Made by a program: the position numbers and the translations under genes. Below, one piece after another: positions 29,794 through 49,407 of a DNA stretch of 64,000 bases. The notes below the pieces were generated by a model, which worked only from the letters and a program-made list of their open reading frames with translations, had not been told where the DNA came from and did no database searches. The stretch is from Pseudonocardia sp. (GTDB lineage: Bacteria > Actinomycetota > Actinomycetes > Mycobacteriales > Pseudonocardiaceae). Position 1 is the first letter of the stretch, and each line of letters starts with the position of its first letter. The stretch covers positions 62,001-126,000 of the forward strand of contig NZ_JAJCYB010000044.1 in the NCBI RefSeq assembly GCF_029263155.1, in the 5' to 3' direction.

Positions 29794-29860
29794 ATTGTCC
29801 GCCGCTCCCAGCATGCGGACGTTGTTGGCCCGGCAGCCGGGCAGGTGGCACTCTGAGGGC

Positions 29861-29950
29861 GTGACCAGGGCCCTCGCGATGCGTCTCGTGGCACGCCGCC
29901 ACGTGGACCTGCAGCGCGTGAGCAGCGCGGTCTGTCACGGCGCGCGCTGA
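29861..29950 (+). CDS. Leader peptide upstream of sulfite reductase
   Basis: A 29-codon ORF (GTG 29861, or 23 codons from ATG 29879) ends 107 bases before sir. Its second half reads ARRHVDLQRVSSAVCHGAR. The R-R-x-H-V-D-L-x-R core with a Cys near the end resembles the short 'putative leader peptides' often annotated before sulfur genes in actinobacteria, and it recurs twice more in this window (47937-47999 and 48812-48886). It is probably a regulatory ORF whose translation senses cysteine supply; the peptide itself need not function. Confidence 0.75.
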   Translation: MTRALAMRLVARRHVDLQRVSSAVCHGAR

Positions 29951-30014
29951 ACCCGCCCCGTCCGTCCCGATCCTGACCCGCCGCGCCACCGTCCTGTCGC
30001 GCGGCGCCGTCACC

Positions 30015-30060
30015 AGCCCGGAGGCCCTGCCTCCGTCCCCAGCCCGGAGGCTGCGCCGTG
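30015..30060 (+). promoter_or_regulatory. Alternative-pairing Shine-Dalgarno element before sir
   Basis: AGCCCGGAGGC occurs twice, at 30015-30025 and 30041-30051, and GCCTCCG lies between them at 30029-30035. The middle segment can pair with the first copy (7 bp, 3-base loop) or with the second copy (7 bp, 9-base loop). The second copy contains the GGAGG ribosome site of sir, whose GTG is at 30058. The two pairings exclude each other, so this is a candidate on/off translation switch working with the leader ORF. Confidence 0.55.
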
Positions 30061-31737
30061 CCCCCCACCTCCCCTGCCCAGAACAAGCCGGTCCGCCGCA
30101 CGCGCGGGGAGGGCCAGTGGAAGCTGGGCCACCGCGAGCCGCTGAACCCCAACGAGCGCACGAAGCGCGACGACGACGGGCTCAACGTCCGCGCGCGGAT
30201 CGAGAACGTCTACAGCAGGCTCGGGTTCGACTCGATCGACCCGGCCGACCTGCGGGGCCGGATGCGCTGGTGGGGGCTCTACACCCAGCGCCGCCCCGGC
30301 ATCGACGGGGGGCGCACCGCGGCGCTGGAACCCGAGGATCTCGACGACCGCTACTTCATGCTGCGTGTCCGGCTCGACGGCGGCGCGCTGACCGGCGAGC
30401 AGCTCCGCGCGCTGGGGGAGATCTCGCAGACCCACGCCCGCGACACCGCCGACGTCACCGACCGGCAGAACATCCAGTTCCACTGGATCGACATCGTCGA
30501 CATGCCCGCGATCTGGGAGCGGCTCGCGGGCCTGGGCATGCTCACCACGGAGGCCTGCGGCGACACCCCGCGCGTCGTGCTCGGGTCCCCGGTGGCCGGG
30601 ATCAGCGCGGACGAGGTCCTCGACCCCACCCCGGCGATCCGCGCGATCGTCGACCGCTACGTCGGCGACCCGAAGTTCTCCAACCTGCCGCGCAAGTTCA
30701 AGAGCGCGATCTCCTGGCAGCAGGACGTGGCGCACGAGGTCAACGACGTCTCGTTCGTCGGGGCCGTCCACCCCGAGCACGGCCCCGGCTTCGACGTGTG
30801 GGTCGGCGGCGGCCTGTCCACCAACCCGAAGATCGCGCAGCGGCTCGGGGCGTGGGTGCCGCTGCACGAGGTGCCCGACGTGTGGGCCGGGATCCTCTCG
30901 GTGTTCCGCGACTACGGATACCGCAGGCTGCGGCACCGCGCGCGCATCAAGTTCCTCGTCGCCGACTGGGGCGTCGCGGAGTTCCGCCGGGTGCTGGAGG
31001 ACGAGTACCTCGGCCGGGCGCTGCTCGACGGCCCCGCGCCGCCGACGCCGGAGCGCCCGATCGACCACATCGGCGTGCACCGACAGGTCGACGGCCGCAA
31101 CTACGTCGGCGTCGCCCCGTCGAGCGGCCGGGTCTCGGGCACCACGCTCGTCGCTCTGGCCGAGGCCGTCGAGCGGGCCGGGTCCGCCCGGGTGCGGCTC
31201 ACCCCGCAGCAGAAGATCGTGGTGCTCGACGTGGCCGACGACCGCGTCGACGCGCTGGTCGCCGAGCTCAACGGCCTGGGGCTGCAGGCCGACCCCTCAC
31301 CGTGGCGGCGCGCGACGATGGCGTGCACCGGCATCGAGTTCTGCAAGCTCGCGATCGTCGAGACCAAGGAGCGGGCGATCCGCCTGGTCGAGGACCTGGA
31401 GAAGCGCCTCGCCGACGTCGTGCCCGAGCACCCGATCTCCATCCACCTCAACGGCTGCCCCAACTCGTGTGCCCGCACCCAGGTCGCCGACATCGGGCTC
31501 AAGGGCCAGATCGTCACCGACGCGGCGGGCGACCAGGTCGAGGGCTTCCAGGTGCACCTGGGCGGTGGCCTGGGTCTGGACGCCGGGTTCGGCCGCAAGC
31601 TGCGCGGGCTCAAGGTCACCAGCGCGGAGCTGGGCGACTACGTCGAGCGGGTGGTCCGCCGCTTCGCCGAGCAACGCGCGGAGAACGAGCGCTTCGCCCA
31701 ATGGGTCCTCCGCGCCGACGAGGACGACCTCCGATGA
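30058..31737 (+). CDS. sir: Ferredoxin-dependent sulfite reductase (SirA/NirA family)
   Basis: The enzyme reduces sulfite to sulfide by six electrons using siroheme and a 4Fe-4S cluster. The 559-residue protein has cluster ligands C423-x5-C429 (ACTGIEFC) and C467-x3-C471 (NGCPNSC). Tyr75 (WWGLYTQRRPG) and Cys167 (TTEACGDTPR) are 92 residues apart, the same spacing as the Tyr-Cys crosslink known in mycobacterial SirA; the crosslink here is inference. It heads the sir-zinc ribbon-cysH-cysD-cysN-chelatase operon. A nitrite reductase role is possible by family but the cysH/cysDN neighbours argue for sulfite. Confidence 0.93.
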   Translation: MPPTSPAQNKPVRRTRGEGQWKLGHREPLNPNERTKRDDDGLNVRARIENVYSRLGFDSIDPADLRGRMRWWGLYTQRRPGIDGGRTAALEPEDLDDRYFMLRVRLDGGALTGEQLRALGEISQTHARDTADVTDRQNIQFHWIDIVDMPAIWERLAGLGMLTTEACGDTPRVVLGSPVAGISADEVLDPTPAIRAIVDRYVGDPKFSNLPRKFKSAISWQQDVAHEVNDVSFVGAVHPEHGPGFDVWVGGGLSTNPKIAQRLGAWVPLHEVPDVWAGILSVFRDYGYRRLRHRARIKFLVADWGVAEFRRVLEDEYLGRALLDGPAPPTPERPIDHIGVHRQVDGRNYVGVAPSSGRVSGTTLVALAEAVERAGSARVRLTPQQKIVVLDVADDRVDALVAELNGLGLQADPSPWRRATMACTGIEFCKLAIVETKERAIRLVEDLEKRLADVVPEHPISIHLNGCPNSCARTQVADIGLKGQIVTDAAGDQVEGFQVHLGGGLGLDAGFGRKLRGLKVTSAELGDYVERVVRRFAEQRAENERFAQWVLRADEDDLR

Positions 31738-31802
31738 CCGCACCTCGGAGCCGTAGTGCTGTTCAGGGCACCCCGCACGCGCGTCCTGGCTCCGAAGTGC
31801 GG
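31738..31802 (+). promoter_or_regulatory. Long hairpin between sir and the zinc-ribbon gene
   Basis: CCGCACCTCGGAGCC (31738-31752) and GGCTCCGAAGTGCGG (31788-31802) form a 15-bp stem with one mismatch and a 35-base loop. It starts at the base after the sir stop codon and ends 5 bases before the next ATG. It could stabilise the sir mRNA end, attenuate downstream expression or set sir/cysH stoichiometry. No T tract follows. Confidence 0.5.
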
Positions 31803-31807
31803 CCGGG

Positions 31808-31954
31808 ATGAGCGAGCGCGCGGTGCCGTTCTACTGCCCCTACTGCGGGGACGAGGACCTGCGGCCGGCCGAGGCGGCGCACGGCGCCTGGTACTGCGGG
31901 TCGTGCCTGCGCACGTTCACCCTCACGATGATCGGGATCGGAGTACCGGGATGA
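31808..31954 (+). CDS. 48-residue double-CxxC zinc-ribbon protein of the sulfite reductase operon
   Basis: The ORF starts at ATG 31808 and ends with a TGA that overlaps the cysH ATG (ATGA at 31951-31954). It encodes two Cys pairs, FYCPYCGDEDL and WYCGSCLRTF, separated by 16 residues, a classic zinc ribbon or rubredoxin-like knuckle. Small genes in this position are common between sir and cysH in actinobacteria, but I know of no established function. An electron-transfer, metal-delivery or assembly role for sulfite reductase is plausible. Too short for many gene callers. Confidence 0.8.
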   Translation: MSERAVPFYCPYCGDEDLRPAEAAHGAWYCGSCLRTFTLTMIGIGVPG

Positions 31955-32646
31955 CCGTCACCACCGGGCGGGAGATCGCCGAGCGCGGCGCCGCCGTGCT
32001 CGGGCCGGACGCGAGCGCCGAGCAGGTGCTCGCGTGGGCCGCCGCGACGTTCGGCGACAAGCTGATCGTCGCCTCGAACATGCAGGACGCCGTGCTCGTC
32101 GACCTGGCGGCGAAGGCCGCGCCCGGCGTCGACGTGCTGTTCCTGGAGACCGGGTACCACTTCGCCGAGACCATCGGCACCCGCGACGCCGTGGAGCACA
32201 GCTACGACGTGCGCATCGTCGACGCGCGGGCCCGGCGCAGCGTCGCCGAGCAGGACACGGAGTTCGGGACGGACCTGTTCGCCCGCGACCCCGGGGCCTG
32301 CTGCGCGATGCGCAAGGTCGAGCCGCTGCAGGACACGCTGGCCGGCTACGACGCCTGGGTCACGGGCGTGCGCCGCGTCGAGGCCCCCACCCGCGCGAAC
32401 ACCCCGCTGATCCAGTTCGACGAGAGGTTCGGGCTGGTCAAGATCAACCCGATCGCGGCGTGGAGCGACGAGGACATGGACGCCTACATCGTGGCCCACG
32501 GGATCCTGGTCAACCCGCTGGTCGCCGAGGGCTACCCCAGCATCGGCTGCGCGCCGTGCACCGCCAAGCCGGCTCCCGGCGCCGACCCCCGGTCCGGCCG
32601 CTGGGCCGGCACCGCCAAGATCGAATGTGGGTTGCACCCGTCATGA
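31951..32646 (+). CDS. cysH: APS reductase (assimilatory, 4Fe-4S type CysH)
   Basis: CysH reduces adenylyl sulfate to sulfite with thioredoxin. The 231-residue protein carries the two Cys pairs that define the iron-sulfur APS-reductase type (CCAMRK and GCAPC) and the C-terminal catalytic motif ECGLH. It lies between the zinc-ribbon gene and cysD, both joined by ATGA overlaps, so the three are tightly coupled. The presence of cysD/cysN without a cysC gene agrees with APS rather than PAPS as substrate. Confidence 0.95.
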   Translation: MTVTTGREIAERGAAVLGPDASAEQVLAWAAATFGDKLIVASNMQDAVLVDLAAKAAPGVDVLFLETGYHFAETIGTRDAVEHSYDVRIVDARARRSVAEQDTEFGTDLFARDPGACCAMRKVEPLQDTLAGYDAWVTGVRRVEAPTRANTPLIQFDERFGLVKINPIAAWSDEDMDAYIVAHGILVNPLVAEGYPSIGCAPCTAKPAPGADPRSGRWAGTAKIECGLHPS

Positions 32647-33545
32647 GCGCACCGACGATGGACGCCCTGGACGCGCTGGAGTCCGAGGCGATCCACATCT
32701 TCCGCGAGGTGGCCGGCGAGTTCGACCGCCCGGTGATCCTGTTCTCCGGCGGCAAGGACTCCACACTGCTGGTGCACCTGGCCGTCAAGGCGTTCGCGCC
32801 CGCGCCGGTGCCGTTCCCGCTCCTGCACGTCGACACCGGGCACAACTACGCCGAGGTCATCGAGTTCCGCGACCGGATCGCCGCGGAGAAGGGCCTGCGG
32901 CTGGAGGTGGCGCACGTCCAGGACTGGATCGACGACGGGCGGCTGGCCGAGCGCCCCGACGGCACCCGCAACCCGCTGCAGACCGTCCCGCTGCTCGACT
33001 CGATCACCGAGCACCGGTACGACGCGGTGTTCGGCGGGGGACGCCGCGACGAGGAGCGCGCCCGGGCCAAGGAGCGGATCATGTCCCTGCGCGACGGCTT
33101 CGGCCGCTGGGACCCCCGCAGCCAGCGCCCCGAGCTGTGGAACCTCTACAACGGACGGCACGCCCCCGGTGAGCACGTGCGCGTGTTCCCGATCAGCAAC
33201 TGGACCGAGCTCGACGTCTGGCGCTACATCCGGCGCGAGGGCATCGAGCTGCCGTCGATCTACTACTCCCACCGGCGCGCGGTGTTCCGCCGCGACGGGA
33301 TGTGGCTGGCCGAGGGGCCGTGGGGCGGGCCGCGCGGTGCCGAGACGCTGGAGGAGCGCACCGTCCGCTACCGGACGGTCGGCGACGGCTCCTGCACCGG
33401 CGCGGTGGAGAGCACGGCGTCCACACTGGACGAGATCATCGCCGAGGTCACGGCGTCGCGGCTCACCGAGCGCGGGGCCACCCGCGCCGACGACCGGCTC
33501 TCCGAGGCCGCCATGGAGGACCGCAAACGCGAGGGGTACTTCTGA
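32643..33545 (+). CDS. cysD: Sulfate adenylyltransferase subunit 2 CysD
   Basis: CysD is the catalytic subunit of ATP sulfurylase and makes APS from ATP and sulfate. The 300-residue protein has the PP-loop SGGKDSTLLVHLA, the GGRRDEERARAKER block and the C-terminal DDRLSEAAMEDRKREGYF tail typical of CysD. ATG 32643 overlaps the cysH stop and its TGA overlaps the cysN ATG at 33545. Confidence 0.96.
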   Translation: MSAPTMDALDALESEAIHIFREVAGEFDRPVILFSGGKDSTLLVHLAVKAFAPAPVPFPLLHVDTGHNYAEVIEFRDRIAAEKGLRLEVAHVQDWIDDGRLAERPDGTRNPLQTVPLLDSITEHRYDAVFGGGRRDEERARAKERIMSLRDGFGRWDPRSQRPELWNLYNGRHAPGEHVRVFPISNWTELDVWRYIRREGIELPSIYYSHRRAVFRRDGMWLAEGPWGGPRGAETLEERTVRYRTVGDGSCTGAVESTASTLDEIIAEVTASRLTERGATRADDRLSEAAMEDRKREGYF

Positions 33546-34807
33546 TGCGAGATCTGCTGCGGTTCGCGACAGCGGGTTCGGTCGACGACGGCAAGTCCAC
33601 ACTGGTGGGACGGCTGCTCTACGACACCAAGTCGGTGCTGGCCGACCAGATCGAGGCCGTACACCGGGCCTCGGTCGACAGGGGACTGTCCACACCGGAC
33701 CTGTCGTTGCTGGTCGACGGCCTGCGCGCCGAACGCGAGCAGGGCATCACCATCGACGTGGCCTACCGCTACTTCTCCACGCCCACGCGCGAGTTCGTGC
33801 TGGCCGACACCCCCGGCCACGTCCAGTACACCCGCAACACCGTCACCGGCGCGTCCACCGCCGAGCTGGCCGTGCTGCTCGTCGACGCCCGGCACGGCGT
33901 GGTGGAACAGACCCGCCGGCACGCCGCGGTGCTCGCGCTGCTGCACGTGCCGCGGCTGGTCCTGGCCATCAACAAGATCGACCTCGTCGACCACGACGAG
34001 GGCGTACTGACCGCGATCGGCAAGGACTTCGCCGAGCTCGCGCTCTCGCTGGGCTTCGACGAGGACGCGGTGGTGACGATCCCGGTGTCCGCGCTGGTCG
34101 GCGACAACGTGGTGGACCGCTCCGCCCGCACGCCCTGGTACGAGGGGCCGACACTGCTCGGGCACCTCGAGGCGGTGCCCGTCACGCCGCCGGAGGCCGA
34201 CGCGCCGTTCCGGATGCCGGTGCAGTGCGTGCTCCGCGAGCCACGCACCGACTACCGGGGCTACGCGGGCCAGGTCGCGTCGGGCACCGTCCGACCCGGC
34301 GACGAGGTCGTGGTCCTGCCGGGCGGCACCCGGACCACGGTCGTCGGGGTGGACACCGCCGACGGCCCGCTCGACGGCGCCTGCGCCGGGCGCAGCGTCA
34401 CCGTCCGGCTGGCCGACGACATCGACCTGTCCCGCGGCGACGTCCTCGCCACCGCCGACGTGCCTCCCCGCGTCACGAACGAGCTGGACGCCACGCTGTG
34501 CTGGCTGTCGGACAAGCCGCTGCGACCCGGCGCCCGGCTGCTGCTCAAGCACGGCGCGCGTACCACGCAGGTGATCGTCGGAGCGCTGGGCGAACGGCTC
34601 GACACCGACACCGTGTCCTATGTGGACGCGCCAGAGACGTTGAGGATCAACGACATCGCCCGCGTCTCCCTGCGCACCGCCGACCCGCTCCCCGTCGACG
34701 ACTACGCCGACATCCGGGCCACCGGCAGCTTCCTGCTGATCGACCCCCCGACCGGCAACACCCTGGCGGCGGGCCTGGTGGGAACGCCGCTGTCCCTGCC
34801 GAGCTGA
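33545..34807 (+). CDS. cysN: Sulfate adenylyltransferase GTPase subunit CysN
   Basis: CysN is an EF-Tu-like GTPase that drives CysD. The 420-residue protein has G1 AGSVDDGKST, G3 DTPGH and G4 NKIDLVD and the two beta-barrel domains. It is CysN only: the C-terminal APS-kinase (CysC) domain of CysNC fusions is missing, which agrees with a pathway through APS. The stop at 34805-34807 lies 2 bases before a GTG for the chelatase frame and 15 bases before a long palindrome. Confidence 0.96.
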   Translation: MRDLLRFATAGSVDDGKSTLVGRLLYDTKSVLADQIEAVHRASVDRGLSTPDLSLLVDGLRAEREQGITIDVAYRYFSTPTREFVLADTPGHVQYTRNTVTGASTAELAVLLVDARHGVVEQTRRHAAVLALLHVPRLVLAINKIDLVDHDEGVLTAIGKDFAELALSLGFDEDAVVTIPVSALVGDNVVDRSARTPWYEGPTLLGHLEAVPVTPPEADAPFRMPVQCVLREPRTDYRGYAGQVASGTVRPGDEVVVLPGGTRTTVVGVDTADGPLDGACAGRSVTVRLADDIDLSRGDVLATADVPPRVTNELDATLCWLSDKPLRPGARLLLKHGARTTQVIVGALGERLDTDTVSYVDAPETLRINDIARVSLRTADPLPVDDYADIRATGSFLLIDPPTGNTLAAGLVGTPLSLPS

Positions 34808-34809
34808 CG

Positions 34810-35634
34810 GTGCCCCCCGCCGAGGGTTTGCGATGCGGCATCACTGACGTTCAACGTCAGCAGTGCCGCATCGCAAACCCTTCCGCACCACCGGCGCTCG
34901 TCGCCGTCGCGCACGGGAGCCGGGATCCGCGGTCCGCCGCCACCGTTGCCCGGCTCATGGACGAGGTCGCCCGGCAGCGGCGGGGTCTCGACGTGCGGCT
35001 GGGCTTCCTCGACCTCTCCGCACCCCGGCTGCCCCACGCGCTGGCCGCCGTCGCCGGCACGCACGACCGGGCGGTCGTCGTCCCGCTGCTGCTCGGGCAC
35101 GCCTTCCACGCCCGCGTGGACGTGCCGGAAGAGGTGGCCCGCGCGTCCCGCGCCCATCCTGGGCTCGACCTCGCCGTTGCGCCCGTTCTGGGCGGGGACC
35201 CGCGGCTGGAGACGGCGGCGCTGCGACGGCTCGCCGCGGTGGCCGGGCCGCTGGAGGACCCCGGGCTCGGGGTCGTGTTGGCGGCCATCGGGTCCTCGCA
35301 CGGTCCGGCTAACGTGGCCGTGGCGGCGATCGTCGCGCGCTGGGCGAGGCGGTTCGGCTGGGCGGGCGGCGGTGCCGCGTTCGCGACGGCCGCGTCGCCC
35401 ACCGTCACCGATGCCGTGGCGCGGCTGCGGGCCGCGGGAGCACAGCGGGTCGCCGTCGCCCCGTGGATCCTGGCCCCCGGCCTGCTTCCCGACCGGATCG
35501 CCCGGGACGCGCATGCCGCGGGCGCCCTCGTCGCCGACCCGCTCGGCCCGCACCCGGACGTGGCCGCCACCGTCCTGGGCCGCTACGACGCCGCCACCGG
35601 GGACCTGGACCATGCCGTCCGCCGACCGGCATGA
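34810..35634 (+). CDS. Sirohydrochlorin chelatase (CbiX/SirB-like)
   Basis: The protein would insert Fe2+ (or Co2+) into sirohydrochlorin, supplying siroheme for the sulfite reductase of the same operon. It has two tandem CbiX halves: VAVAHGSRDPRSAATVARL with VVVPLLLGHAFHARVDVP, then IGSSHGPANVAV with VAPWILAPGLLPDRI. The first usable in-frame start before the essential HGS motif is GTG 34810 (or TTG 34828), giving 274 residues. This start implies an N-terminal extension of about 28 residues encoded largely by a perfect palindrome (34823-34881). A non-canonical start after the palindrome cannot be excluded. Confidence 0.85.
   Translation: MPPAEGLRCGITDVQRQQCRIANPSAPPALVAVAHGSRDPRSAATVARLMDEVARQRRGLDVRLGFLDLSAPRLPHALAAVAGTHDRAVVVPLLLGHAFHARVDVPEEVARASRAHPGLDLAVAPVLGGDPRLETAALRRLAAVAGPLEDPGLGVVLAAIGSSHGPANVAVAAIVARWARRFGWAGGGAAFATAASPTVTDAVARLRAAGAQRVAVAPWILAPGLLPDRIARDAHAAGALVADPLGPHPDVAATVLGRYDAATGDLDHAVRRPA
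34823..34881. repeat. 59-bp palindromic element at the cysN/chelatase junction
   Basis: The element has outer arms of 18 bp that match perfectly (AGGGTTTGCGATGCGGCA at 34823-34840 and its reverse complement at 34864-34881). Inner arms of 8 bp (CTGACGTT at 34844-34851 and AACGTCAG at 34853-34860) flank a single C. The open reading frame of the chelatase passes through it without a stop. It looks like an inserted palindromic repeat or a very strong terminator-like hairpin inside an operon. Confidence 0.8.
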
Positions 35635-35719
35635 CCACGGCGGACCGGACATTTGCCTGCGGTCCCGCAACGCGGACACCCCTGTTGTCCCGGACCGCCC
35701 GACCACGCACGATGGCGTG

Positions 35720-35833
35720 GTGACCACGACCGCGCACCCGCCGGAGCCAGGCTGCTCCGGGACCGGGACGCGCGATCTCGAGGAGTTCTGGCCCTCGCGC
35801 CGCGGCCACGCCTACGACGAGTTCTGTCGCTGA
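35720..35833 (+). CDS. Possible 37-residue ORF before the TauE/SafE gene
   Basis: A GTG-started ORF (35717 or 35720) in the 260-base gap before the permease gene ends with SRRGHAYDEFCR. The C-terminal Cys-Arg-stop and the RRxH-like segment recall the leader peptides of this window, but the HVDL core is missing. It may be a leader, a small protein or chance coding in a GC-rich gap. Apart from it I see nothing definite in 35635-35894. Confidence 0.3.
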   Translation: MTTTAHPPEPGCSGTGTRDLEEFWPSRRGHAYDEFCR

Positions 35834-35924
35834 TCGCGCTCCCTCGCTGATCCCGCGGCCGGCCGGCCCACCGCTCACCGGTGGAACCCGACCGGTGCGC
35901 CCGCGCCTGCTCCTGGAGTCCGTC

Positions 35925-36827
35925 GTGACCACGCTCGTCCTGCTCGCCCTCGCCGGTTTCGGCGCCCAGCTCGTCGACGGCGCCCTCGGCATGGGCTACG
36001 GCGTCACGTCCACCACGCTGCTGCTGCTGGCCGGGCTCTCCCCGGCCGCGGCCAGCGCGTCGGTGCACCTCGCCAAGATCGGCACGGCGCTGGCGTCCGG
36101 CTACGCGCACTGGCGGTTCGACAACATCGACCCGAAGCTCGTGCTGCGCCTGGGCGTGCCCGGCGCGGCCGGGGCGCTGGCCGGGGCGCTGCTGCTCTCG
36201 TGGCTGTCCACCGAAGCCTCGGCCCCGCTGATGGCCGCGCTGCTGATCGGGATCGGCATCTTCATCCTCGTCCGCTACTCGGTCCGCCCGCCGCGCGAGT
36301 CGGTCGCCCGGATCTCGCCGCACGGCCGCCGGTTCCTCGTCCCGGTCGGGCTCGTCGGCGGCTTCGTCGACGCCACCGGCGGCGGCGGGTGGGGCCCGGT
36401 CGCCACGTCCACGCTGCTGACGGCCGGGCGCACCGCCCCCCGCACGGTGATCGGCTCGGTGAGCGCGTCGGAGTTCCTGGTGACGGTCGCGGCCAGCGCC
36501 GGGTTCGTCATCGGCCTCGGCCACGCCGGCATCGACTGGCTCGCCGTCGCCGGGCTGCTCGCCGGGGGTGTCGTGGCGGCGCCGCTCGCGGCCTGGCTGG
36601 TCACCCGGCTGCCCGCGACCGTGCTCGGCGTCGCCGTCGGCGGCCTGATCGTGCTGTCCAACCTGCGGATCGTGCTCGGATCCGCCGGTGTCGACGGCCC
36701 GGCGGCCCCGGCGGCGCACCTCGGGGTCGCGGTCGTGTCCGTGGCGCTGGTCGCCGTCGCGGCGCGGCGGCTGCGTGCGGCCCGCACCCCCGGCGTCGAC
36801 CCGGTCGACGTCCACCTGCACGTCTGA
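35925..36827 (+). CDS. TauE/SafE-family permease (sulfite exporter-like)
   Basis: The 300-residue membrane protein has about eight hydrophobic helices and the TauE/SafE hallmarks: GFGAQLVDGALGMGYG near the N-terminus, LAKIGTALASGYAHWRF, then in the second half VGLVGGFVDATGGGGWGP. Members move sulfite, sulfonates or other small anions. Next to the sulfate assimilation operon, sulfite export or sulfur-anion import fits. GTG 35925 has a GGAG site and matches the start of the decayed copy downstream; GTG 35895 would add 10 residues. Confidence 0.88.
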   Translation: MTTLVLLALAGFGAQLVDGALGMGYGVTSTTLLLLAGLSPAAASASVHLAKIGTALASGYAHWRFDNIDPKLVLRLGVPGAAGALAGALLLSWLSTEASAPLMAALLIGIGIFILVRYSVRPPRESVARISPHGRRFLVPVGLVGGFVDATGGGGWGPVATSTLLTAGRTAPRTVIGSVSASEFLVTVAASAGFVIGLGHAGIDWLAVAGLLAGGVVAAPLAAWLVTRLPATVLGVAVGGLIVLSNLRIVLGSAGVDGPAAPAAHLGVAVVSVALVAVAARRLRAARTPGVDPVDVHLHV

Positions 36828-36854
36828 TCCCCTCCCATCCCGGAGACCTCCCGT

Positions 36855-36965
36855 CACGGGCACCCTCGTCGTCCTCGCCATGGTCGGATTCGGGCGCCCA
36901 ACTCGTGGACGGCGCCCTCGGAACGGCCTACGGCATCCCGTCCACCTCGCTGCTGTGGGGCCGCT
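36855..36965 (+). pseudogene. Truncated, frameshifted second copy of the TauE/SafE gene
   Basis: Just after the permease gene the DNA again encodes its N-terminus, TLVVLAMVGFG, then after a 1-base insertion near 36890 in the other frame AQLVDGALGTAYGIPSTSLL. This aligns with TTLVLLALAGFGAQLVDGALGMGYGVTSTTLL of the intact gene. The similarity stops after about 35 codons. The remaining gap to 37138 holds no gene that I can support; a GGGAGGGA ribosome site precedes GTG 37139. Confidence 0.75.
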
Positions 36966-37138
36966 CCCGCGTCTTCGACCGCCGGGCCGACAGGACAGGA
37001 CCCTGCAGCGGCACGCACGCCTGTCGATCGACGAGGCGGTGTGAGGCTGATCGGAGACTGCCCTCCGGCCGCGGCGGCACCTGCCCGCAGCCGCGCACAT
37101 GGGACACACTGCAGGTCTGGGCTCGGACGGGAGGGACC

Positions 37139-40453: not shown

Positions 40454-40456
40454 GCG

Positions 40457-40500
40457 CGGTGTCCCAGGGCACGGTGTCCCAGGGCACGGTGTCGCCGGGC
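40457..40500. repeat. 15-bp tandem repeat after the SARP gene
   Basis: CGGTGTCCCAGGGCA occurs at 40457-40471 and 40472-40486, followed by a degenerate third copy (CGGTGTCGCCGGGC, 40487-40500). It fills the 55-base gap between the convergent regulator and fusion genes. It may be simple slippage DNA. Confidence 0.75.
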
Positions 40501-40508
40501 GGAGCGGC

Positions 40509-42617: not shown

Positions 42618-42665
42618 CCCGGCCTCCTTCCCCCGCATCGGGGCTCCAACCTGGCCGACGCCATT

Positions 42666-42694
42666 GCAGCCGCACTGCAACGGTGTCGCAACGG
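42666..42694. promoter_or_regulatory. Three heptad direct repeats, SARP-like binding site
   Basis: GCAGCCG (42666-42672), GCAACGG (42677-42683) and GCAACGG (42688-42694) are separated by 4-base spacers, giving an exact 11-bp period. This is the architecture of SARP operators. They lie between the fusion gene and the divergent hydrolase gene. A 17-bp inverted repeat TTGCAG-N5-CTGCAA (42664-42680) overlaps the first two. The SARP gene 2 kb away is the natural candidate to bind. Confidence 0.6.
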
Positions 42695-42758
42695 ACTTCG
42701 GCACCGTCGCGGCACGCGTCCGCCACAGACGGTGCGGAAACGACGAGGAGGCCGGGAG

Positions 42759-43499
42759 ATGACGACGTACGTGCTGGTACACGGGGGGTTCACCGACAGC
42801 TGGTACTGGGGCGAGACCGCAGCGCTGCTGGAGCGCGACGGGCACCGGGTGCTGCTCGTCGAGCTGCCCAGCACCGGGACCGACCCGGCGACGCTGGGCG
42901 GGCTCGTCGAGGACGCCGCCGAGACCCGGCGGGTGATCGACTCCGCCGGGGAGCCGGTGGTGCTCGTCGGGCACTCCTCCGGCGGCATGGTGATCACCGA
43001 GGTGGCCGACCATCCCGGTATCGCGCACACGGTGTACGTGAGCGCCATGTGGCCGCAGCGCGGTGCCGCCGTCGGCGACGTGCTGGCCCAGATGCCGCCG
43101 ATGGAGTGGACCGTGCCGAACAGTGACGGCACGGCCGTGGCGGTGACGTCGGACGTCGAGGTCGCCCACCGGTACCTGTGCGCCGACCTCGACCCCGCCC
43201 GGGTTCCGGAATGGCACGCCGGCCTGATGTTCTCCGGAACCAGGGGCATGGCGACGCCCAGCAGCGCACCCGACCGCGCGCACCCGACCACCTACGTCGT
43301 GCTGGAACAGGACCGGGCGATCCCCGTGCAGGCGCAGGAGGCGATGGCCACCGGGGCCGACCGGATCGAGCGGCTCGGGACCGGGCACGTCCCGCAGCTC
43401 ACCGACCCCGACGGTCTGGCCGCGGTGCTCGCCCGGGTGCCGGTCCCGGCGCGGCCGAGCATCCCCGTGAACGCCGCCGCCGGCAACGCGGGCGGGTAG
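42759..43499 (+). CDS. Alpha/beta-fold hydrolase
   Basis: The 246-residue protein is of the salicylate-esterase/hydroxynitrile-lyase-like type: start TTYVLVHGGFTDSWYW, nucleophile elbow VGHSSGG, acid region VVLEQDRAIP and His in LGTGHVPQL. Family members cleave esters or act as lyases on small aromatic compounds. ATG 42759 follows a GGAGG-rich site. It diverges from the hydrolase-glycosyltransferase fusion and shares the heptad-repeat region with it. Confidence 0.85.
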   Translation: MTTYVLVHGGFTDSWYWGETAALLERDGHRVLLVELPSTGTDPATLGGLVEDAAETRRVIDSAGEPVVLVGHSSGGMVITEVADHPGIAHTVYVSAMWPQRGAAVGDVLAQMPPMEWTVPNSDGTAVAVTSDVEVAHRYLCADLDPARVPEWHAGLMFSGTRGMATPSSAPDRAHPTTYVVLEQDRAIPVQAQEAMATGADRIERLGTGHVPQLTDPDGLAAVLARVPVPARPSIPVNAAAGNAGG

Positions 43500-43512
43500 G
43501 ACCGTCGGACGG

Positions 43513-43545
43513 CCGGCCCGGTGGATCCACGACCCGCCGGGCCGG
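43513..43545. terminator. Bidirectional terminator-like hairpin
   Basis: CCGGCCCGG (43513-43521) and CCGGGCCGG (43537-43545) form a perfect 9-bp stem between the convergent hydrolase and methyltransferase genes. The loop includes the perfect palindrome GTGGATCCAC. No T tract is present. Confidence 0.6.
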
Positions 43546-43560
43546 TCCGCGGCAGTCGAG

Positions 43561-44364
43561 TCAGTCCCGGCCCTTGCGGGCGAGGTAGCCGGTCACCGCG
43601 ATCTCGGCGCGCAGCGGGAGACCGGCGCGGATCCGCTCGTCGGCCACACCCACCGCCGCGTCGTGGAAGGCCTGCTCACCGACGGCCGCGATCGCCTCAT
43701 AGGCCGGCCCGGTCGAGGCCAGCGCGCGCGCGTAGGTGTGCGGGTCAGCGAACTCCCACGCGAAGGGCACGTCGATGCGGCGGACCTCGACGTAGCCCGC
43801 CCGGCCCAGCAACTCCTCGCCGGCACCGGGCCGGCCCAGTGCGACCATCGCCGCCTGGTTCGCGACGGCGGGTGGGTCGGCCAGCCGGAACAGGCTCAGC
43901 GCCCACGCACCGGGCGAGGCCTTGATGTGCCCCCACACGGTGAGGCCGAGGCGACCGCCGGGCGCGAGCACGCGGCTGATCTCCGAGACCACGTCCGGCG
44001 TCGTGCCCCACACGCCGCGGAAGCTGGTGACGACGTCGAAGGACTCCGCATCCCAGGGCAGCGCGTGCATGTCCCCGACCCGGATGTCGGCGCCCGGGCT
44101 GCGGTCCCGCGCGACGGCCACGAGCCGCGCGGACGCGTCGATGCCGGCGCAGGCCGCTCCCCGTAACCTCGCGAGCTCGATGGCCAGCCCGCCACCGCAG
44201 GCGACGTCGAGCAGCCGGTCCCCGTCGTCCACCCGCAACCGGTGGTGGACGGCGACGTACTCGCGGCAGTTGGCGGGCTCGGCCAGCGTCGCGAAGTCGA
44301 CCGCCTCCCGGCCCCACCCCTCGTCGACACCGCGCCAGGCCTGTGCGTCGTCGCGGACGGTCAT
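43561..44364 (-). CDS. Class I SAM-dependent methyltransferase
   Basis: The 267-residue protein has the methyltransferase fold with motif I LLDVACGGGLAIELA, the acidic loop GIDASARLV, GDMHALPW and motif IV-like FDVVTSFRGVWGT, as in UbiE/Methyltransf_11 proteins. The methyl acceptor is unknown; sitting beside hydrolases, a glycosyltransferase and a former monooxygenase, it may modify a secondary metabolite. ATG 44364. Confidence 0.87.
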   Translation of the reverse strand: MTVRDDAQAWRGVDEGWGREAVDFATLAEPANCREYVAVHHRLRVDDGDRLLDVACGGGLAIELARLRGAACAGIDASARLVAVARDRSPGADIRVGDMHALPWDAESFDVVTSFRGVWGTTPDVVSEISRVLAPGGRLGLTVWGHIKASPGAWALSLFRLADPPAVANQAAMVALGRPGAGEELLGRAGYVEVRRIDVPFAWEFADPHTYARALASTGPAYEAIAAVGEQAFHDAAVGVADERIRAGLPLRAEIAVTGYLARKGRD

Positions 44365-44412
44365 GCGGATCTCCTCGTCGGTTCGTCGGGCGGGCGGGCT
44401 CGCCCTGCGATC

Positions 44413-45639
44413 TCAGGCAGCCTGGGGCGGACTGCGGAGATGCCCCATCAGGTGGGCACACAGCAGCCCCGCGTCGGGCCCGACACCGGCCAGCAGGTTG
44501 GATCCGCGGCGGCGGGTGAAGGGCAGCCCGAGCACGTACATCCCCGGTACCGCCAGCATCCCACCGTCGTGGCGCAGTGCGCCACGGTGGTCGAGCAACG
44601 CCGGGTCGAGCCATGGATAGCGGGGACGGTGGCCGGTGGCCCAGACGACGGCGGAGAACCGGGCCAGGTCGAGCTCGGTCACCACCGGCGGCATCGGTGT
44701 CGGGGCCGGCCGGTCGACGGGACCGACCCGGTCGGCAATGCCGTGCTCGGCCACGTGCGCGTCGACCCGCTCCAGCAGGCGGGCCTGCTTGAGGTCGGTG
44801 GCCTTGATCAGGTTGGCCGGCGACCCGGAGATCTGGGCGCGCCGCCCGGACACACCGACGAGGCGACCGCAGATCTCGACGCCCGCCGCGGACAGCGCGG
44901 CCAGGTCCAGGGCGCGCCGCTGCGGGGTGCCCACCGGCTGCAGCGACGGCTGCCGACAGGCCCGGGTGAGGTCAGGCACCTCGTCGTAGCTCTCGTGCAG
45001 GATGCCCAGGTCGTTCATCCACCGGTAGATGTCGCGGCCGCGGTAGGTGCACGGCACCAGGACGTGGTCGCCCACGGCCACCGTGGCCGGTCGCCCGGCC
45101 CGGCGCAGCTCGTCGGCGATCTACACCCCCGACGCGGCGGCCCCGACGACCAGCACCGCCTCCGGCGCCAACTGCCCGGGGCCGCGGTAGCCCGACGCGG
45201 CGACCTGCTGGAGGTGGCCGGGCAGCTCCGGGGCGAGGGCGGGCAACCGCGGCTCGCCCTCCATCCCGGTCGCCACGACGACGGCCCGGCAGCGCCGCGG
45301 GCTGTCGTCGGTGTCCACCTGGAACCCCGACCCCGTGGGCGCCACTCCCACGATCGTCGTGTGCGGGCGCACCGGCGCACCTGAAGCCGCCGGCGTAGGC
45401 GTCGAGCAGGGCGACGACCTCGCCGGCCCGCTGGAAGCCGTCGGGGTCCTCGCCGTCGTAGCCGTGGCCCGGCAACCGGCTCATCCAGTTCGGGGGTGAG
45501 CAGCCGCAGCGAGCGAGCGCCAGGACTGCGCGACCGCGCCCCGCTCCAGGACCACGTGGCCGACACCGCATACGGCGAGGTGCCGACTCATCGCCAGGCC
45601 CGCATACCCGCCGCCGATCACGACGACGGTGGTGCGCAC
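44413..45639 (-). pseudogene. Broken flavin-dependent oxidoreductase (MSMEG_0569/NitH-like)
   Basis: Joined across frames, the sequence is a full-length flavin monooxygenase-like protein of about 405 residues: TTVVVIGGGYAGLAMSRHLA, LRLLTPNWMSRLPGHGYDG, VLVVGAAASGV, YRGRDIYRWMND and a C-terminal VPGMYVLGLPFTRRRGSN. I recall these blocks from the MSMEG_0569 family, the NitH member of the Nit1C cluster. It is broken by a frameshift near 45515, another near 45383 and a TAG at 45121-45123 where relatives read Gln after ASGV. Three lesions argue for true decay rather than sequencing error. The start would be GTG 45639. Confidence 0.8.
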
Positions 45640-46039
45640 CTCAGCCGACCTCCACCGTCGCCGCGGGCGGGTTGGTCAGGATGTCGTAGACCGCCGACAG
45701 CTTCTGCGACTGCACCACGACGGCCTCGATGTCCGCGCGCGAGGCGTCGGGTGAAGCAGCGCCCGTTGCACTCCGATTGCATTCCACCTGCAGGAGCGGG
45801 ACGGGCGCGCGGCTGCTAACGACCTCCGCGGCCCGGCGGCGTCACCGGGAAGCGATCTGGGGCCTTCCCTCCCCGCCGCGGACCACCAGCGGCTGCGGTG
45901 GCTGGCGAGGCTCACCGAACGGCCACCGGCCGGGAGCTTGCCGAGGCGATGCTCGGGCCGGGCCGCGGCCCGGAGGCCGTCGGCGACCCGGAGGCGCTTG
46001 GTCGCGCGGGGCGAGCACCGCCGAGCGATCTCCGCCGGG
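45640..46039. other. Degenerate region with a gene fragment
   Basis: This 400-base gap has no intact gene. On the minus strand, just before the dead oxidoreductase, a reading frame ending at TGA 45641-45643 encodes ADIEAVVVQSQKLSAVYDIL and then TNPPAATVEVG; it looks like the tail of a lost upstream gene of the same operon, which I cannot name. Between about 45780 and 46039 short frames on both strands show no recognisable motif. Confidence 0.5.
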
Positions 46040-47899
46040 TCAGGCGGCAGCGGCACGCGCCGCCGCCGGGAGGCTGCGCAGGACGGCGCGGGCGACCGCG
46101 TCGTTGTAGCGCAGGCTCTGGGCGTTCATGCCGGGCCGGGTGAAGGCGCCCGCGACCTTCACCGTGGTGTGCGGGCCCACCGCGAACCGCTGCGGGTGCA
46201 CCTCGCCTGCGGCGTCGATCAGCGCGCCGTCCTCCGCGCGGACGCGGATCAGGCCGGTGTTGCGCAGAACGGTGCCGTCGGGGTCGATCAGGACGTCCTC
46301 GCTGACGGCGCCGCGCGCCATCAGGTCGGCGAGCAGCGGGTCGACGGTGCGGGCCGCGCTGGGGTCCGGGAGGCGGGCGTCGACCAGCGCGGCGGCCCGG
46401 ACCGGCTCGGCGTCGGCGAGCGTGGTGCTGCCGGCCCGGAAGCCGTCGGCATCCACCTCGACCCACATCCCCGCACCGAGGAAGTCGACGAACCCGGCCC
46501 GGGACAGCTCGAGCAGCTCGCGCACCCGGAACCCCGGCGGGCCGCTCGCGACGCCGTTGAAGAACCCCTGCCACCAGGCCATGTCCGTGGCCCGGGAGCG
46601 CGCCGAGAGCGACCCGGACAGCCGCGTGGTCTCCCCGTAGACCGACAGCATCGCGACGAACGCGCCCAGGTGCGCGGTGTGCCGGTCGTCGACGTGCTGG
46701 CGCAGGTCCTCGGCGATGCGCTCGCGCACCAGCGGTTGCAGGGCGGCGAGATCGGGCGCGGTGAGGCCGTCGAGGGGGCGATCGAGTGCGGCGAAGTCGA
46801 TGCGGTCGACCGGGTCGGGCACGGCCGAGTCGATCAGCGCGAGCATCCCGGGCGAGTCCCAGTCGAGTGCGGCGTAGGCACCGGCGAACTCCGCCCACGG
46901 CAGGGCGACGGCGTCGGGGTGCCCGACGAACAGCTCGTGGTACCACCCCCAGGCGATCTCCTTGGCCATCAGGGGCCAGGCCTGCGCGCGCAGGTCCACC
47001 TCGCCCGCAGCGATCAGCGGGTCGACGGCGTCGGGCCCGAAGAAGCGCGGCAGCGGCGGGCGCGGCGCCCGGAGCGCGTAGTGGGTCTTCGAGTGGTAGG
47101 TCGAGCCGCGCGGGGAGCCGACGACCAGCCGCGGCTCGCGCCCGGACGCCACGTAGCCCGCTTCGGTGAACCGCCCGCCCCGGCCCTCGAACAGCAGCAC
47201 CACGAGATCGACGAACGCCAGTCCCATGCCGCGCACCAGCACCGTCTCCTCCGGCGCCAGCACCGAAAGGTCCGAGTCGGTGGTCTGCTCGGGCGGCAGG
47301 TAGCGCAGGCCCCGCTCGGCCGCGCGGGCGGCGAGCGCGTGCTCGTCGTCGGTGGGGGTGGCGTCGAGGTGGCCCGACGCCAGCACCACGGCATCGACGC
47401 GCAGCGGCGGGGCGCCCTCGAGGTGCACGACCTGCGTCCCGCCGTCCTCGGTCAGGCCCGTCGCGCGGGTGCGGTGGACGTGCGCGCGCATCCCGGCGGG
47501 CAGGTCGTCGATGACGTGGCGCAGCACCCAGGCCAGGTACTCGCTCTGCAGACGACGGCTGGGGAACGTCGACGCGGTGACGGTGGCCAGCTCACCGCGC
47601 AGCTCCGGGGCCACCTCCGGCGACGCGCGCGCCCAGTCCCAGAACGACGGGCCGGGCACGATCGGGCCGTCGCAGACCACCGTGTCGTCGGTGAACATGG
47701 TGACGTCGGCGGCCATCGAGTTCATCGCCAGCAGCGGCGACTGTGCGTGCCGCCAGATCCGGCCGGGTCCCGCGGGGTAGGGGTCGATCAGGTGGACGTC
47801 GATGCCACCGGGATGCAGCTCGGGGGCGCTCGCGGCCAGGCGTTCCAGGATGCCCGCGCCGCGGGGTCCGGCGCCGACGATCGCGATCTGGGAGGTCAT
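46040..47899 (-). CDS. FAD/NAD(P)-binding protein (NAD_binding_9 type)
   Basis: The 619-residue protein starts TSQIAIVGAGPRGAGILERL, a Rossmann FAD/NAD motif, and fits the FAD/NAD(P)-binding family related to lysine N-oxygenase-like proteins. Blocks such as PLLAMNSMAADVTMFTDD, VVLASGHLDATPTDDE, LVRGMGLAFVDLVVLLFEGRGG and FTRPGMNAQSLRYND recur in the family. No reaction is established for it. ATG 47899 has a GAGAGG site. A 20-residue leader ORF of the HVDL type lies 37 bases upstream, linking it to the sulfite reductase and OsmC genes. Confidence 0.82.
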   Translation of the reverse strand: MTSQIAIVGAGPRGAGILERLAASAPELHPGGIDVHLIDPYPAGPGRIWRHAQSPLLAMNSMAADVTMFTDDTVVCDGPIVPGPSFWDWARASPEVAPELRGELATVTASTFPSRRLQSEYLAWVLRHVIDDLPAGMRAHVHRTRATGLTEDGGTQVVHLEGAPPLRVDAVVLASGHLDATPTDDEHALAARAAERGLRYLPPEQTTDSDLSVLAPEETVLVRGMGLAFVDLVVLLFEGRGGRFTEAGYVASGREPRLVVGSPRGSTYHSKTHYALRAPRPPLPRFFGPDAVDPLIAAGEVDLRAQAWPLMAKEIAWGWYHELFVGHPDAVALPWAEFAGAYAALDWDSPGMLALIDSAVPDPVDRIDFAALDRPLDGLTAPDLAALQPLVRERIAEDLRQHVDDRHTAHLGAFVAMLSVYGETTRLSGSLSARSRATDMAWWQGFFNGVASGPPGFRVRELLELSRAGFVDFLGAGMWVEVDADGFRAGSTTLADAEPVRAAALVDARLPDPSAARTVDPLLADLMARGAVSEDVLIDPDGTVLRNTGLIRVRAEDGALIDAAGEVHPQRFAVGPHTTVKVAGAFTRPGMNAQSLRYNDAVARAVLRSLPAAARAAAA

Positions 47900-47936
47900 G
47901 GGGTCCTCTCGGGAGCGGCCAGGGCGGTCCGTACCC

Positions 47937-47999
47937 CTACAGCGCGGCGCTGGTGCGGCACAGGTCCACGTGCCACCGGCGCACGAGCGAGCAACCCAT
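47937..47999 (-). CDS. Leader peptide upstream of the FAD/NAD(P)-binding gene
   Basis: A 20-codon ORF reads MGCSLVRRWHVDLCRTSAAL. The RRxHVDLxR core is the same as in the leaders of sulfite reductase and osmC, and two Cys codons are present. It ends 37 bases before the FAD gene on the same strand. The remainder of the gap to 48051 shows nothing else. Confidence 0.7.
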   Translation of the reverse strand: MGCSLVRRWHVDLCRTSAAL

Positions 48000-48051
48000 G
48001 GCGTCGACGGTACGGCGGGCCGCGCGGTCCGACCAGCGGATCGGGCGCGCG

Positions 48052-48783
48052 TCACGCCGCGTCGATCAACTCTGTCAGTGCGCCGGTCACGGCGGCGGGA
48101 TCGGTGCCGCGGCGGATCTCCACCATCAGCGCGCTCACCCGGGGGTCCGTGCCGTGGCGCGACAGCGGCACGTACGCACCCGAGAAGGGCGTGTCGAGCG
48201 CGACCCCGGCGCCGAACGCCGCGCGGGCGGCCGCGACGAGCCACGCGGGCGTGTGCACCGGGTCGGTGCCCAGGCAGACCGGGGGGCGCGGCCCGCCGCC
48301 GTGCCGCTCGTAGGGCAGCGGGTCCGGCGCGTAGGAGTGGACGTCGATCAGCACGCATCCCCCGGTGGCCGCGATCCGCTGTGCCACCAGGGTCTCCACC
48401 GCCTCGGCCCAGGGTGCGTAGAAGGCGGCCAGCAGGGCGTCGCGGTGGGCCGGGTCGTCGTCGCGGATGCGCTGACCGCGCGTGCCGTGGGTGTAGACCG
48501 CGCCCATCCCGACCGCCGCCATCTCCTCGCGCTCGTCGGGGAAGCGCTCGACGTCGACGACGAACCGCGACACCGGGTTGACCAGGAGCCACGGCCTGGT
48601 CCGGGCGGCACGGGCCGCGGCCGCCGCGATCTCGCCGGTGCCGTGGTCGGTGAGCGCGGCGACCTCCGCGGCCAGCGTGGCGTCGTCGAGGAGCAGGTGG
48701 GGGCGGGTCCACGCCGGGATGTCGACGCCGGCGTGCGGGACGTGCAGGACCACCCGGCTGTGTGCGGCACCGGATGGCGTCAC
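48052..48783 (-). CDS. N-formylglutamate amidohydrolase-family protein
   Basis: The protein (243 residues from GTG 48783; a TTG at 48792 is possible) has the family pattern: VVLHVPHAGVDIPAW at the start, LVNPVSRFVVDVERFPDE, AVYTHGTRGQRIR, CVLIDVHSYAP and a C-terminal VSALMVEIRRG. Members remove formyl groups from N-formylglutamate in histidine degradation, but no hut gene is nearby, so the real substrate may differ. It diverges from the OsmC unit across a 14-bp palindrome. Confidence 0.87.
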   Translation of the reverse strand: MTPSGAAHSRVVLHVPHAGVDIPAWTRPHLLLDDATLAAEVAALTDHGTGEIAAAAARAARTRPWLLVNPVSRFVVDVERFPDEREEMAAVGMGAVYTHGTRGQRIRDDDPAHRDALLAAFYAPWAEAVETLVAQRIAATGGCVLIDVHSYAPDPLPYERHGGGPRPPVCLGTDPVHTPAWLVAAARAAFGAGVALDTPFSGAYVPLSRHGTDPRVSALMVEIRRGTDPAAVTGALTELIDAA

Positions 48784-48792
48784 GCCCGGCAA

Positions 48793-48806
48793 TGTAGTTC
48801 ACTACA
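48793..48806. promoter_or_regulatory. 14-bp palindrome in the divergent promoter region
   Basis: TGTAGT-TC-ACTACA is a perfect 6+6 inverted repeat in an otherwise GC-rich region. On the minus strand it overlaps a TACATT -10-like sequence 7 bases before GTG 48783; on the plus strand it ends 5 bases before the leader ORF. The shape suits a GntR-type operator controlling both sides. Confidence 0.55.
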
Positions 48807-48811
48807 CAATC

Positions 48812-48886
48812 GTGACGATCGACCCGGGTCTGGTGCGCCGCCTGCACATCGACCTGCTGCGCATCTGCGCCACCAGCTGTCGCTGA
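48812..48886 (+). CDS. Leader peptide upstream of osmC
   Basis: A 24-codon ORF from GTG 48812 ends RRLHIDLLRICATSCR. It shares the RRxH(V/I)DLxR core with the other two leaders and has two Cys codons close to the stop. It ends 48 bases before the OsmC start, which has its own AGGAG site. Confidence 0.75.
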   Translation: MTIDPGLVRRLHIDLLRICATSCR

Positions 48887-48934
48887 CCGGTCCCTTCCCG
48901 TCCCGTTCCCCGTTCCACCCCCAGGAGTAGAGCC

Positions 48935-49390
48935 ATGCCTCTCGTCAACTTCGCCGTCAGCGGCGCCGGGACCGGGGTCGCGCAGACCGTCGCCGTCTCC
49001 GGCGCCGACCACGTGATCCGGACCGACGCGTACCCCGCCTTCGGCGGCCAGGACGCCCACCCCAGCCCGCTGGCCTACACGCTGGCCTCGCTGAGCTCGT
49101 GCAACCAGGTGACCGCCCAGGTCGTCGCCAAGGAGCTCGGCATCACCATCGAGTCCGTCCGCTTCGACGTGTCCGCCGACCTCGACCCGACCACGATGAC
49201 GACCGGCCGCGAGAGCGCCGACGCCACGTTCCAGAACCTGGTGATCGCCGCGGAGATCACCACCGACGCGCCGGCCGACCGGTTCGACACGCTGCGCGAC
49301 GAGGTGGCGCGGCGCTGCCCGGTCAGCGTGCTATTCACCCGCGCCGGGGTGCGGATCACCAACGACTGGACGCAGGTCAAGCCCGCCTGA
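48935..49390 (+). CDS. OsmC-family protein
   Basis: The 151-residue protein has the OsmC/Ohr fold with the two reactive cysteines Cys56 (SLSSCNQVT) and Cys128 (RRCPVSVLF). OsmC proteins reduce organic or other hydroperoxides with thiols; this one is of the YhfA/OsmC-like branch rather than clear Ohr. Being behind a Cys-rich leader ORF, its expression probably follows sulfur or cysteine status. Confidence 0.9.
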   Translation: MPLVNFAVSGAGTGVAQTVAVSGADHVIRTDAYPAFGGQDAHPSPLAYTLASLSSCNQVTAQVVAKELGITIESVRFDVSADLDPTTMTTGRESADATFQNLVIAAEITTDAPADRFDTLRDEVARRCPVSVLFTRAGVRITNDWTQVKPA

Positions 49391-49407
49391 CCGGCGCGGC
49401 CCGGCGT

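Follow-up and report, generated by a model that had tools for sequence, protein, structure and literature searches.

Cysteine-containing leader peptides ahead of sulfur genes are a known kind of element in actinobacteria. In mycobacteria, work by Canestrari from 2020 is said to have described polycysteine leaderless short open reading frames (ORFs) as attenuators, and the view reported for these mycobacterial cysteine (Cys) attenuators is that a hidden ribosome-binding site is released. Earlier work bearing on such leader peptides includes Shell 2015 and a study that lists candidate cys leader peptides in actinobacteria and suspects Rho-dependent control, a proposal that it calls weak itself for the mycobacterial cys leaders (Seliverstov 2005, PMC1262725). 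Here we examine a stretch of 64,000 nucleotides from Pseudonocardia sp. (contig NZ_JAJCYB010000044.1, positions 62,001 to 126,000; hereafter the window) that holds three short ORFs with a common RRxH(V/I)DLxR core. Leader 1 precedes a sulfite/nitrite reductase-type gene, leader 2 a flavoprotein gene and leader 3 an OsmC-family gene (Table 1). Our preferred reading, which we hold with moderate confidence and which is drawn from sequence comparison, is that the three ORFs encode leader peptides for cysteine-responsive attenuation in which codon 12 (counting the His of HVDL as 1) would be the sensor, the flavoprotein leader being a variant without this sensor.

An earlier note on this DNA had reported the three ORFs and argued that their likeness reflects a shared mechanism. 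Their coordinates and peptides are as it gave them, with one, two and two Cys codons, and it left out that the second ORF lies on the minus strand. A shared kind, as opposed to a chance resemblance, is borne out: a six-frame scan of the whole window for RR.?H[VI]DL.R with a stop at most 25 residues on returned exactly these three ORFs, and the same scan returned none in 200 simulated windows (second-order Markov, composition of the window). NCBIfam models also point to a common family. Leader 1 reaches 38.5 bits against NF042934 ('putative leader peptide'), above the cut-off of 27, and is a member by that measure; leaders 2 and 3 score 24.9 and 16.6 bits, under the cut-off. Against NF042936 (Ms4527A) and NF042933 (Ms5788A), with a cut-off of 45, the best scores are 30.9, 16.5 and 20.3 bits for leaders 1 to 3 (the last from the Ms4527A model), and none passes.

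The leader family is widespread in Actinomycetes. Matches to a protein model, which is blind to codons, occur in 60 of 60 sampled genomes of the genus (E 0.01) and in 110 of 148 genomes of the class (E 0.001). The best-scoring loci among the matches listed gave a genus set of 88 leaders (89 loci, L097-L185, minus L147 and L175, where the motif was unmatched, and minus one chance match in L183; L155 contributes two leaders) and a class set of 86 (89 loci, L186-L274, minus L251, L267 and L270 and one chance match in L265). Of the genus leaders, 84 have UGU at position 12 (3 have UGC and 1 a stop), as do all 86 class leaders, so that fetched leaders with Cys at this position use UGU in 170 of 173 cases; the protein model contributes to the selection of Cys there but has no influence on the codon. 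The motif expression itself demands Asp at position 3, an Arg ahead of the motif and R, K, H or Q at position 6, and these invariances are no result. By comparison, UGU makes up 5.9% (genus) and 9.7% (class) of the Cys codons in the downstream genes, with UGC at 90-94%, and the remaining Cys codons of the leaders in both sets are UGC in 154 of 175. Reducing the collection to 36 leaders that share less than 75% identity (codons -4 to 11) leaves 34 UGU, 1 UGC and 1 UGA at position 12, compared with 5 UGU and 24 UGC at their other Cys codons (Fisher p 1e-11). Leaders located without the model agree: UGU stands at position 12 in 16 of 16 OsmC leaders found via the gene (by script, from 20 OsmC matches; one more, in L281, is visible in the sequence and lies outside the count) and in all 26 further leaders of the flavoprotein loci; these two collections overlap the genus set in species. 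Third-base A/T exceeds 35% at no codon position from -4 to 15 other than 12. It is also raised at codons -2, -1, 1 and 3, Asp 3 being GAT in 31 of 88 genus leaders versus 3.4% expected. The fixed-position UGU and its absence from the flavoprotein leader had been overlooked in the earlier note; a search of the literature, limited to open papers, did not find the position-12 UGU rule reported among the papers listed, and we consider it new.

A possible cause of the rule is that UGU is decoded more slowly, by wobble of one tRNA-Cys. The base that follows UGU is also constrained, being a pyrimidine in 85 of 88 genus and 84 of 86 class leaders even as the encoded residues vary (R, P, L, Q, C or stop). 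Such constancy despite differing residues would be expected if UGU and the pyrimidine were part of an element of RNA or DNA that has nothing to do with decoding, for instance a pairing partner or a cleavage site, with codon 12 being no pause site. We find this improbable: folding of 87 genus and 86 class leaders gave no constant pairing partner for the last base of UGU, and the one internal hairpin tested, between codons 2-3 and 12-13, lacks covariation. That hairpin was rejected as the cause of UGU, since the third base of V2 and the second base of codon 13 form neither a Watson-Crick nor a G-U pair in 42 of 87 leaders.

The genes behind the leaders were identified by taking the first downstream ORF with a simple G+C rule and scanning it against Pfam; some of these choices are wrong, and transposase and regulator matches also occur. 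The resulting census is dominated by sulfur-type families. The 86 downstream proteins of the genus include 25 with the sulfite/nitrite reductase 4Fe-4S domain, 18 ABC permeases, 10 DUF4395, 7 luciferase-like monooxygenases, 6 acyl-CoA dehydrogenases, 3 rhodaneses, 2 Cys/Met metabolism enzymes, 2 OsmC and 1 TauD; the 85 of the class include 22 rhodaneses, 15 DUF4395, 13 sulfite/nitrite reductases, 5 PAPS reductases, 4 PALP, 4 cysteine dioxygenases and 3 sodium:dicarboxylate symporters. The genome of the window itself has at least three further leaders ahead of sulfur-type genes, which we named by reading translations: MIRLVTRRHVDYMRVTSTACRPGR stands ahead of an O-acetylhomoserine sulfhydrylase-like gene, VFTRILCRRLHVDLLRVTSSACR ahead of a luciferase-type monooxygenase-like one and LTRRRAVDLCRVGSCLCRTS (the end of the frame) ahead of DUF4395-like and rhodanese-like genes. 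In the class set, L239, L240, L241 and L243 have LWRRV-HMDLVRYAGCVCRPSC leaders with UGU at position 12; going by a reading of the loci, these are probably the leaders ahead of the four cysteine dioxygenase-family genes.

Selection on the peptide was estimated as pN/pS over codons -4 to 11, the two remaining frames serving as controls. Values are low for leaders of sulfite reductase (0.21, n=26), DUF4395/rhodanese (0.27, n=14), permease (0.22, n=10) and flavoprotein genes (0.33, n=23), and the control frames of these four groups range from 1.12 to 3.29. By this measure, amino acids are kept while synonymous sites change in four of the five groups analysed, a conservation pattern that supports a possible action of the peptide in the ribosome.

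We then consider the leader of the flavoprotein gene, for which 63 loci with relatives were collected, 29 of them from Pseudonocardia, and scanned over 300 and 400 bases upstream. The leader is kept in 26 of the 29 Pseudonocardia loci, 24 by the 300-base scan and L052 and L053 by the 400-base scan; in these two, the frame extends past the start of the gene match. No leader was seen in L049, L056 and L065, and both scans of the other 34 loci showed no such leader on the strand of the gene, the 400-base scan matching a few long motif-free frames there. Together with leader 2 of the window this makes 27 leaders, in none of which position 12 is Cys. In 19 of them a stop falls exactly there: 14 UGA and 4 UAG (18 of the 24 from the 300-base scan) and the UAG of the window. 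Cys occurs at position 5 in 24 of 27, always as UGC (21 from the 300-base scan, the window's own, L052 and L053). Actinomycetospora leaders HVDLCRTSAAICRP, standing before an acyl-CoA dehydrogenase-family gene (scanned in L061 only), carry UGU at position 12; next to these, the form HVDLCRTSAAL-stop has the look of a leader cut short at the sensor codon, which is our inference. We consider this leader branch ending at codon 12 to be new. L174 shows a second type of gene with a truncated form, a luciferase-type monooxygenase-like gene whose leader LISRRHVDLCRTASAV has UGA at position 12. Leader 2 is without the codon-12 sensor, and any response to Cys would therefore have to depend on codon 5 or on a pause at the stop; a cautious reading is that control of the flavoprotein gene has shifted to the UGC at codon 5.

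Sequences flanking the leaders bear on how they could act. All 17 flavoprotein leaders that start nine codons before the His, leader 2 included, have a TANNNT box that begins 12 or 13 nt upstream of the start codon (of the 27, these 17 entered the test), a spacing that is as for leaderless mRNA. This spacing, as well as the two flavoprotein leaders that run past the start of the gene match, would suit leaders that merely feed ribosomes to the next gene by coupling or reinitiation, with no Cys signal; we judge this very unlikely, as it predicts neither UGU at position 12 nor the HVDL motif nor the sulfur bias downstream. Behind the leader stop, spacers are rich in C and poor in G (51% C and 26% G in the genus, with C over G in 88 of 88; 45% C and 28% G in the class, with C over G in 88%), the mean C-G skew being 0.32 (genus) and 0.22 (class) versus 0.05 for the corresponding stretch before 54 genes of the window, a number that includes the three leader genes. 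The rise in skew comes at the leader stop codon. A scan of 47850-49000, the region of leaders 2 and 3, found no intrinsic terminator, and 29700-49500 gave no Rfam match at gathering thresholds. A C-rich spacer of this kind fits Rho-dependent control and would also fit a spacer that is simply unstructured. Release of the ribosome-binding site by stalling, a possible alternative outcome, was modelled for leaders 1 and 3 and, leaving out leaders without a usable site or with a long gap, for 62 leaders of the genus set, 56 of the class set and 24 of the flavoprotein group (leader 3 went into the model one codon too early). A modelled stall at codons 12 and later raised access by 0.05-0.08 on average; in the genus set, the mean gain was 0.06-0.07 at codon 12 and at most 0.01 at codons 1-7. 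In several predicted folds of flavoprotein leaders, the GAGAGG site seems to have its complement in codons 10-12, and the spacer would form a hairpin.

The same features may be put together differently. In TnaC of E. coli, the ribosome arrests at the stop codon of the leader, and a stretch usable by Rho lies beside the leader end. By a TnaC-like nascent-chain arrest, RRxHVDLxR in the tunnel would respond to a metabolite by stalling the ribosome when codon 12, be it UGU or stop, occupies the A site; Cys-tRNA would be secondary and the flavoprotein leader would be the stop-codon form of the same device. The conserved amino acids with varying synonymous sites in four of five groups, the fixed distance of 11 codons from His to UGU, the stop at position 12 in 18 of 24 flavoprotein leaders plus the window's own, three Cys-free leaders and the C-rich stretch directly behind the stop all agree with it. 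However, almost every other leader has Cys at position 12, which points to Cys-tRNA, and 8 of the 27 flavoprotein leaders have no stop at that position, so that we regard arrest of this type as unlikely, though less so than an element unrelated to decoding. We give a similarly low probability to a broader form, in which a single arrest device, used across Actinomycetes, would have HVDL and codon 12 as its halves: the RRxHVDLxR nascent chain would prime the ribosome, and arrest would need a slow codon 12, either UGU or stop. If this were true, the rare UGU would make Cys-tRNA the signal, and the flavoprotein leaders, Cys-free ones included, would be stop-codon arrest leaders sensing another signal, for example a sulfur metabolite.

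Under the reading that we prefer, cysteine-responsive attenuation with codon 12 as the sensor, the mRNA would in many cases probably start at the leader start codon (the promoter basis being the flavoprotein leaders, with extension to the others by analogy), and ribosomes would load on the leader. When the ribosome reaches codon 12, nearly always UGU and a rare Cys codon here, the RR-HVDL-x-R segment would be in the exit tunnel. Scarce charged tRNA-Cys would then cause a pause at codon 12, and the paused ribosome would cover the leader end and the start of the C-rich spacer, closing the spacer to Rho, freeing the ribosome-binding site, or both, and the downstream sulfur gene would be expressed. 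With plentiful Cys, the ribosome would finish the leader and depart, and expression would drop. Leaders 1 and 3 would be ordinary members, and leader 2 the variant that usually ends at codon 12 and mostly has UGC at codon 5, its flavoprotein belonging to a locus for organosulfur use.

Several observations weigh against this reading. Three leaders have UGC at position 12 (L097, L162 and L163, which look like sulfite reductase leaders), and the flavoprotein leaders of L043, L045 and L047 (the last from P. endophytica) have no Cys codon, yet keep HVDL. TANNNT lies at 11-14 nt in no more than 35 of the 88 leaders of the genus set and 53 of the 86 of the class set. The modelled effects on release of the ribosome-binding site are weak, and a stall on leader 1 lowered access. 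Four class leaders precede genes of the cysteine dioxygenase family; such an enzyme degrades Cys and should not be induced when Cys is low, and a Cys leader on its gene suggests opposite wiring or another signal. Finally, pN/pS of the OsmC leaders is 0.81 (n=10, 9 distinct), versus 0.74 and 1.72 in the control frames. The suggestion of the earlier note that the nascent peptide matters in addition to the Cys codons is thus backed by four groups with low pN/pS and by the three Cys-free leaders, but not by the OsmC group. Conservation in related genomes, the lack of which the earlier note would have taken as a refutation, is seen in the 26 of 29 Pseudonocardia flavoprotein loci and in 16 OsmC leaders.

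Table 1. Features of the window (positions counted from its first letter; codon positions from the His of HVDL).
Feature	Position	Strand	Remarks
Leader 1	29861..29950	+	Reads VTRALAMRLVARRHVDLQRVSSAVCHGAR; one Cys codon, TGT at position 12 (29933-29935)
Spacer behind leader 1	29951..30057	+	First 95 bases 55% C, 25% G
Sulfite/nitrite reductase-type gene	30058..31737	+	Family matches, all under curated cut-offs
cysH-, cysD- and cysN-like genes	31951-34807		After the reductase-type gene; named by reading translations
Flavoprotein gene	46040..47899	-	PF13454; full-length homolog of L-aspartate N-hydroxylase 8cp2
Leader 2	47937..47999	-	Reads MGCSLVRRWHVDLCRTSAAL; two Cys codons, TGC at position 5 (47958-47960) and TGC at 47991-47993; stop TAG at position 12 (47937-47939), no Cys there
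TACCGT, -10-like box (TANNNT)	48007..48012	-	13 nt ahead of the leader 2 start
N-formylglutamate amidohydrolase-like gene	48052-48792		PF05013; between leaders 2 and 3
Leader 3	48812..48886	+	Reads VTIDPGLVRRLHIDLLRICATSCR; two Cys codons, TGC at 48866-48868 and TGT at position 12 (48878-48880)
OsmC-family gene	48935..49390	+	PF02566

The three genes had been called unlinked, which is not fully so: the flavoprotein and OsmC genes are divergent with starts about 1 kb apart and the PF05013 gene in between, and the sulfite reductase-type gene lies about 18 kb off in the same window. A perfect palindrome, TGTAGTTCACTACA, lies at 48793-48806, 5 bases ahead of leader 3; it is the only copy in the window, was not seen in the relatives looked at, and is possibly an operator. 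Among the OsmC loci, L282 and L285, from two genomes, have an OsmC match with one in-frame TGA. NCBIfam includes a model for an OsmC-related (seleno)protein, and these two genes may encode selenoproteins.

The flavoprotein aligns over residues 4-608 with residues 4-597 of 8cp2 (E 1.7e-80), which indicates full-length homology to the L-aspartate N-hydroxylase of Streptomyces V2 (PMC10404684). Of the aspartate-binding residues named in that paper (Arg13, Arg276, Asn413, Arg416 and Arg577), Arg13 and Arg577 are the same and 276, 413 and 416 differ, by hand reading of one pairwise alignment that is possibly shifted there. With two of five aspartate-binding residues aligned, identification as an L-aspartate N-hydroxylase was not accepted. 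In 34 of the 63 loci a luciferase-type monooxygenase gene (at least 65% identity to that of L035; five of the 34 confirmed by Pfam) lies upstream on the opposite strand, an adjacency that also occurs in Microbacteriaceae, where no leader was found. Several of these monooxygenase genes have a leader of their own with UGU at position 12. Relatives of permease, binding-protein, cysN, cysD and cysH genes lie near the flavoprotein gene in some loci, and a relative of the N-formylglutamate amidohydrolase-like gene (PF05013) in 10 of 63; 30 loose ABC ATPase matches carry little weight. In the window, no relative of the L035 monooxygenase was found in the 24 kb searched. The placement of the flavoprotein in a sulfur setting, which had been put forward from the leader alone, gains from the 34 adjoining monooxygenase genes, and on this comparative basis a sulfur role is well supported; a sulfonate or amino-sulfonate substrate is our guess. 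We consider the adjacency of the flavoprotein and monooxygenase genes to be new.

One codon choice held at one position across a bacterial class offers attenuation research a precise and testable sensor site. It also offers a simple search rule for Cys-controlled genes, a UGU that follows the His of HVDL at a distance of eleven codons. Flavoprotein leaders that are truncated or free of Cys amount to natural mutants, with which the contribution of the peptide could be told apart from that of the Cys codons. The linkage would place the flavoprotein, a relative of amino-acid N-hydroxylases that is so far uncharacterised, within organosulfur use and so gives a hint to its substrate.

With the mycobacterial attenuators, the leaders described here share the sequence family (with weak to good scores), a short ORF with Cys codons before sulfur genes and, for the flavoprotein leaders, the leaderless promoter spacing. 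Unlike the polycysteine attenuators, leaders 1 to 3 have one or two Cys codons and no run; they stay under the Ms4527A and Ms5788A cut-offs, and leader 2 is without Cys at position 12. Leader 2 is similar to TnaC in having conserved residues about 8-11 codons ahead of the stop and a stretch that Rho might use beside its end, a likeness limited to position and conservation. The available parts of Seliverstov 2005 (PMC1262725) contain no description of flavoprotein or OsmC leaders; the candidates there resemble ours in that the leader peptides have no terminator and that pyrimidine-rich sequence lies close by, and Rho-site motifs are given as not conserved, whereas the C-over-G skew after the stop is general in the leaders fetched here. 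The uORFC-8-2 attenuator of cysS in Rhodobacterales differs in having two tandem Cys codons, mostly UGC, and an intrinsic terminator (PMC8632094). Because UGC dominates in that leader, the UGU rule is not general for Cys attenuators; what the two systems have in common are Cys codons at fixed positions of the leader and a Cys-related gene next to it (PMC8632094).

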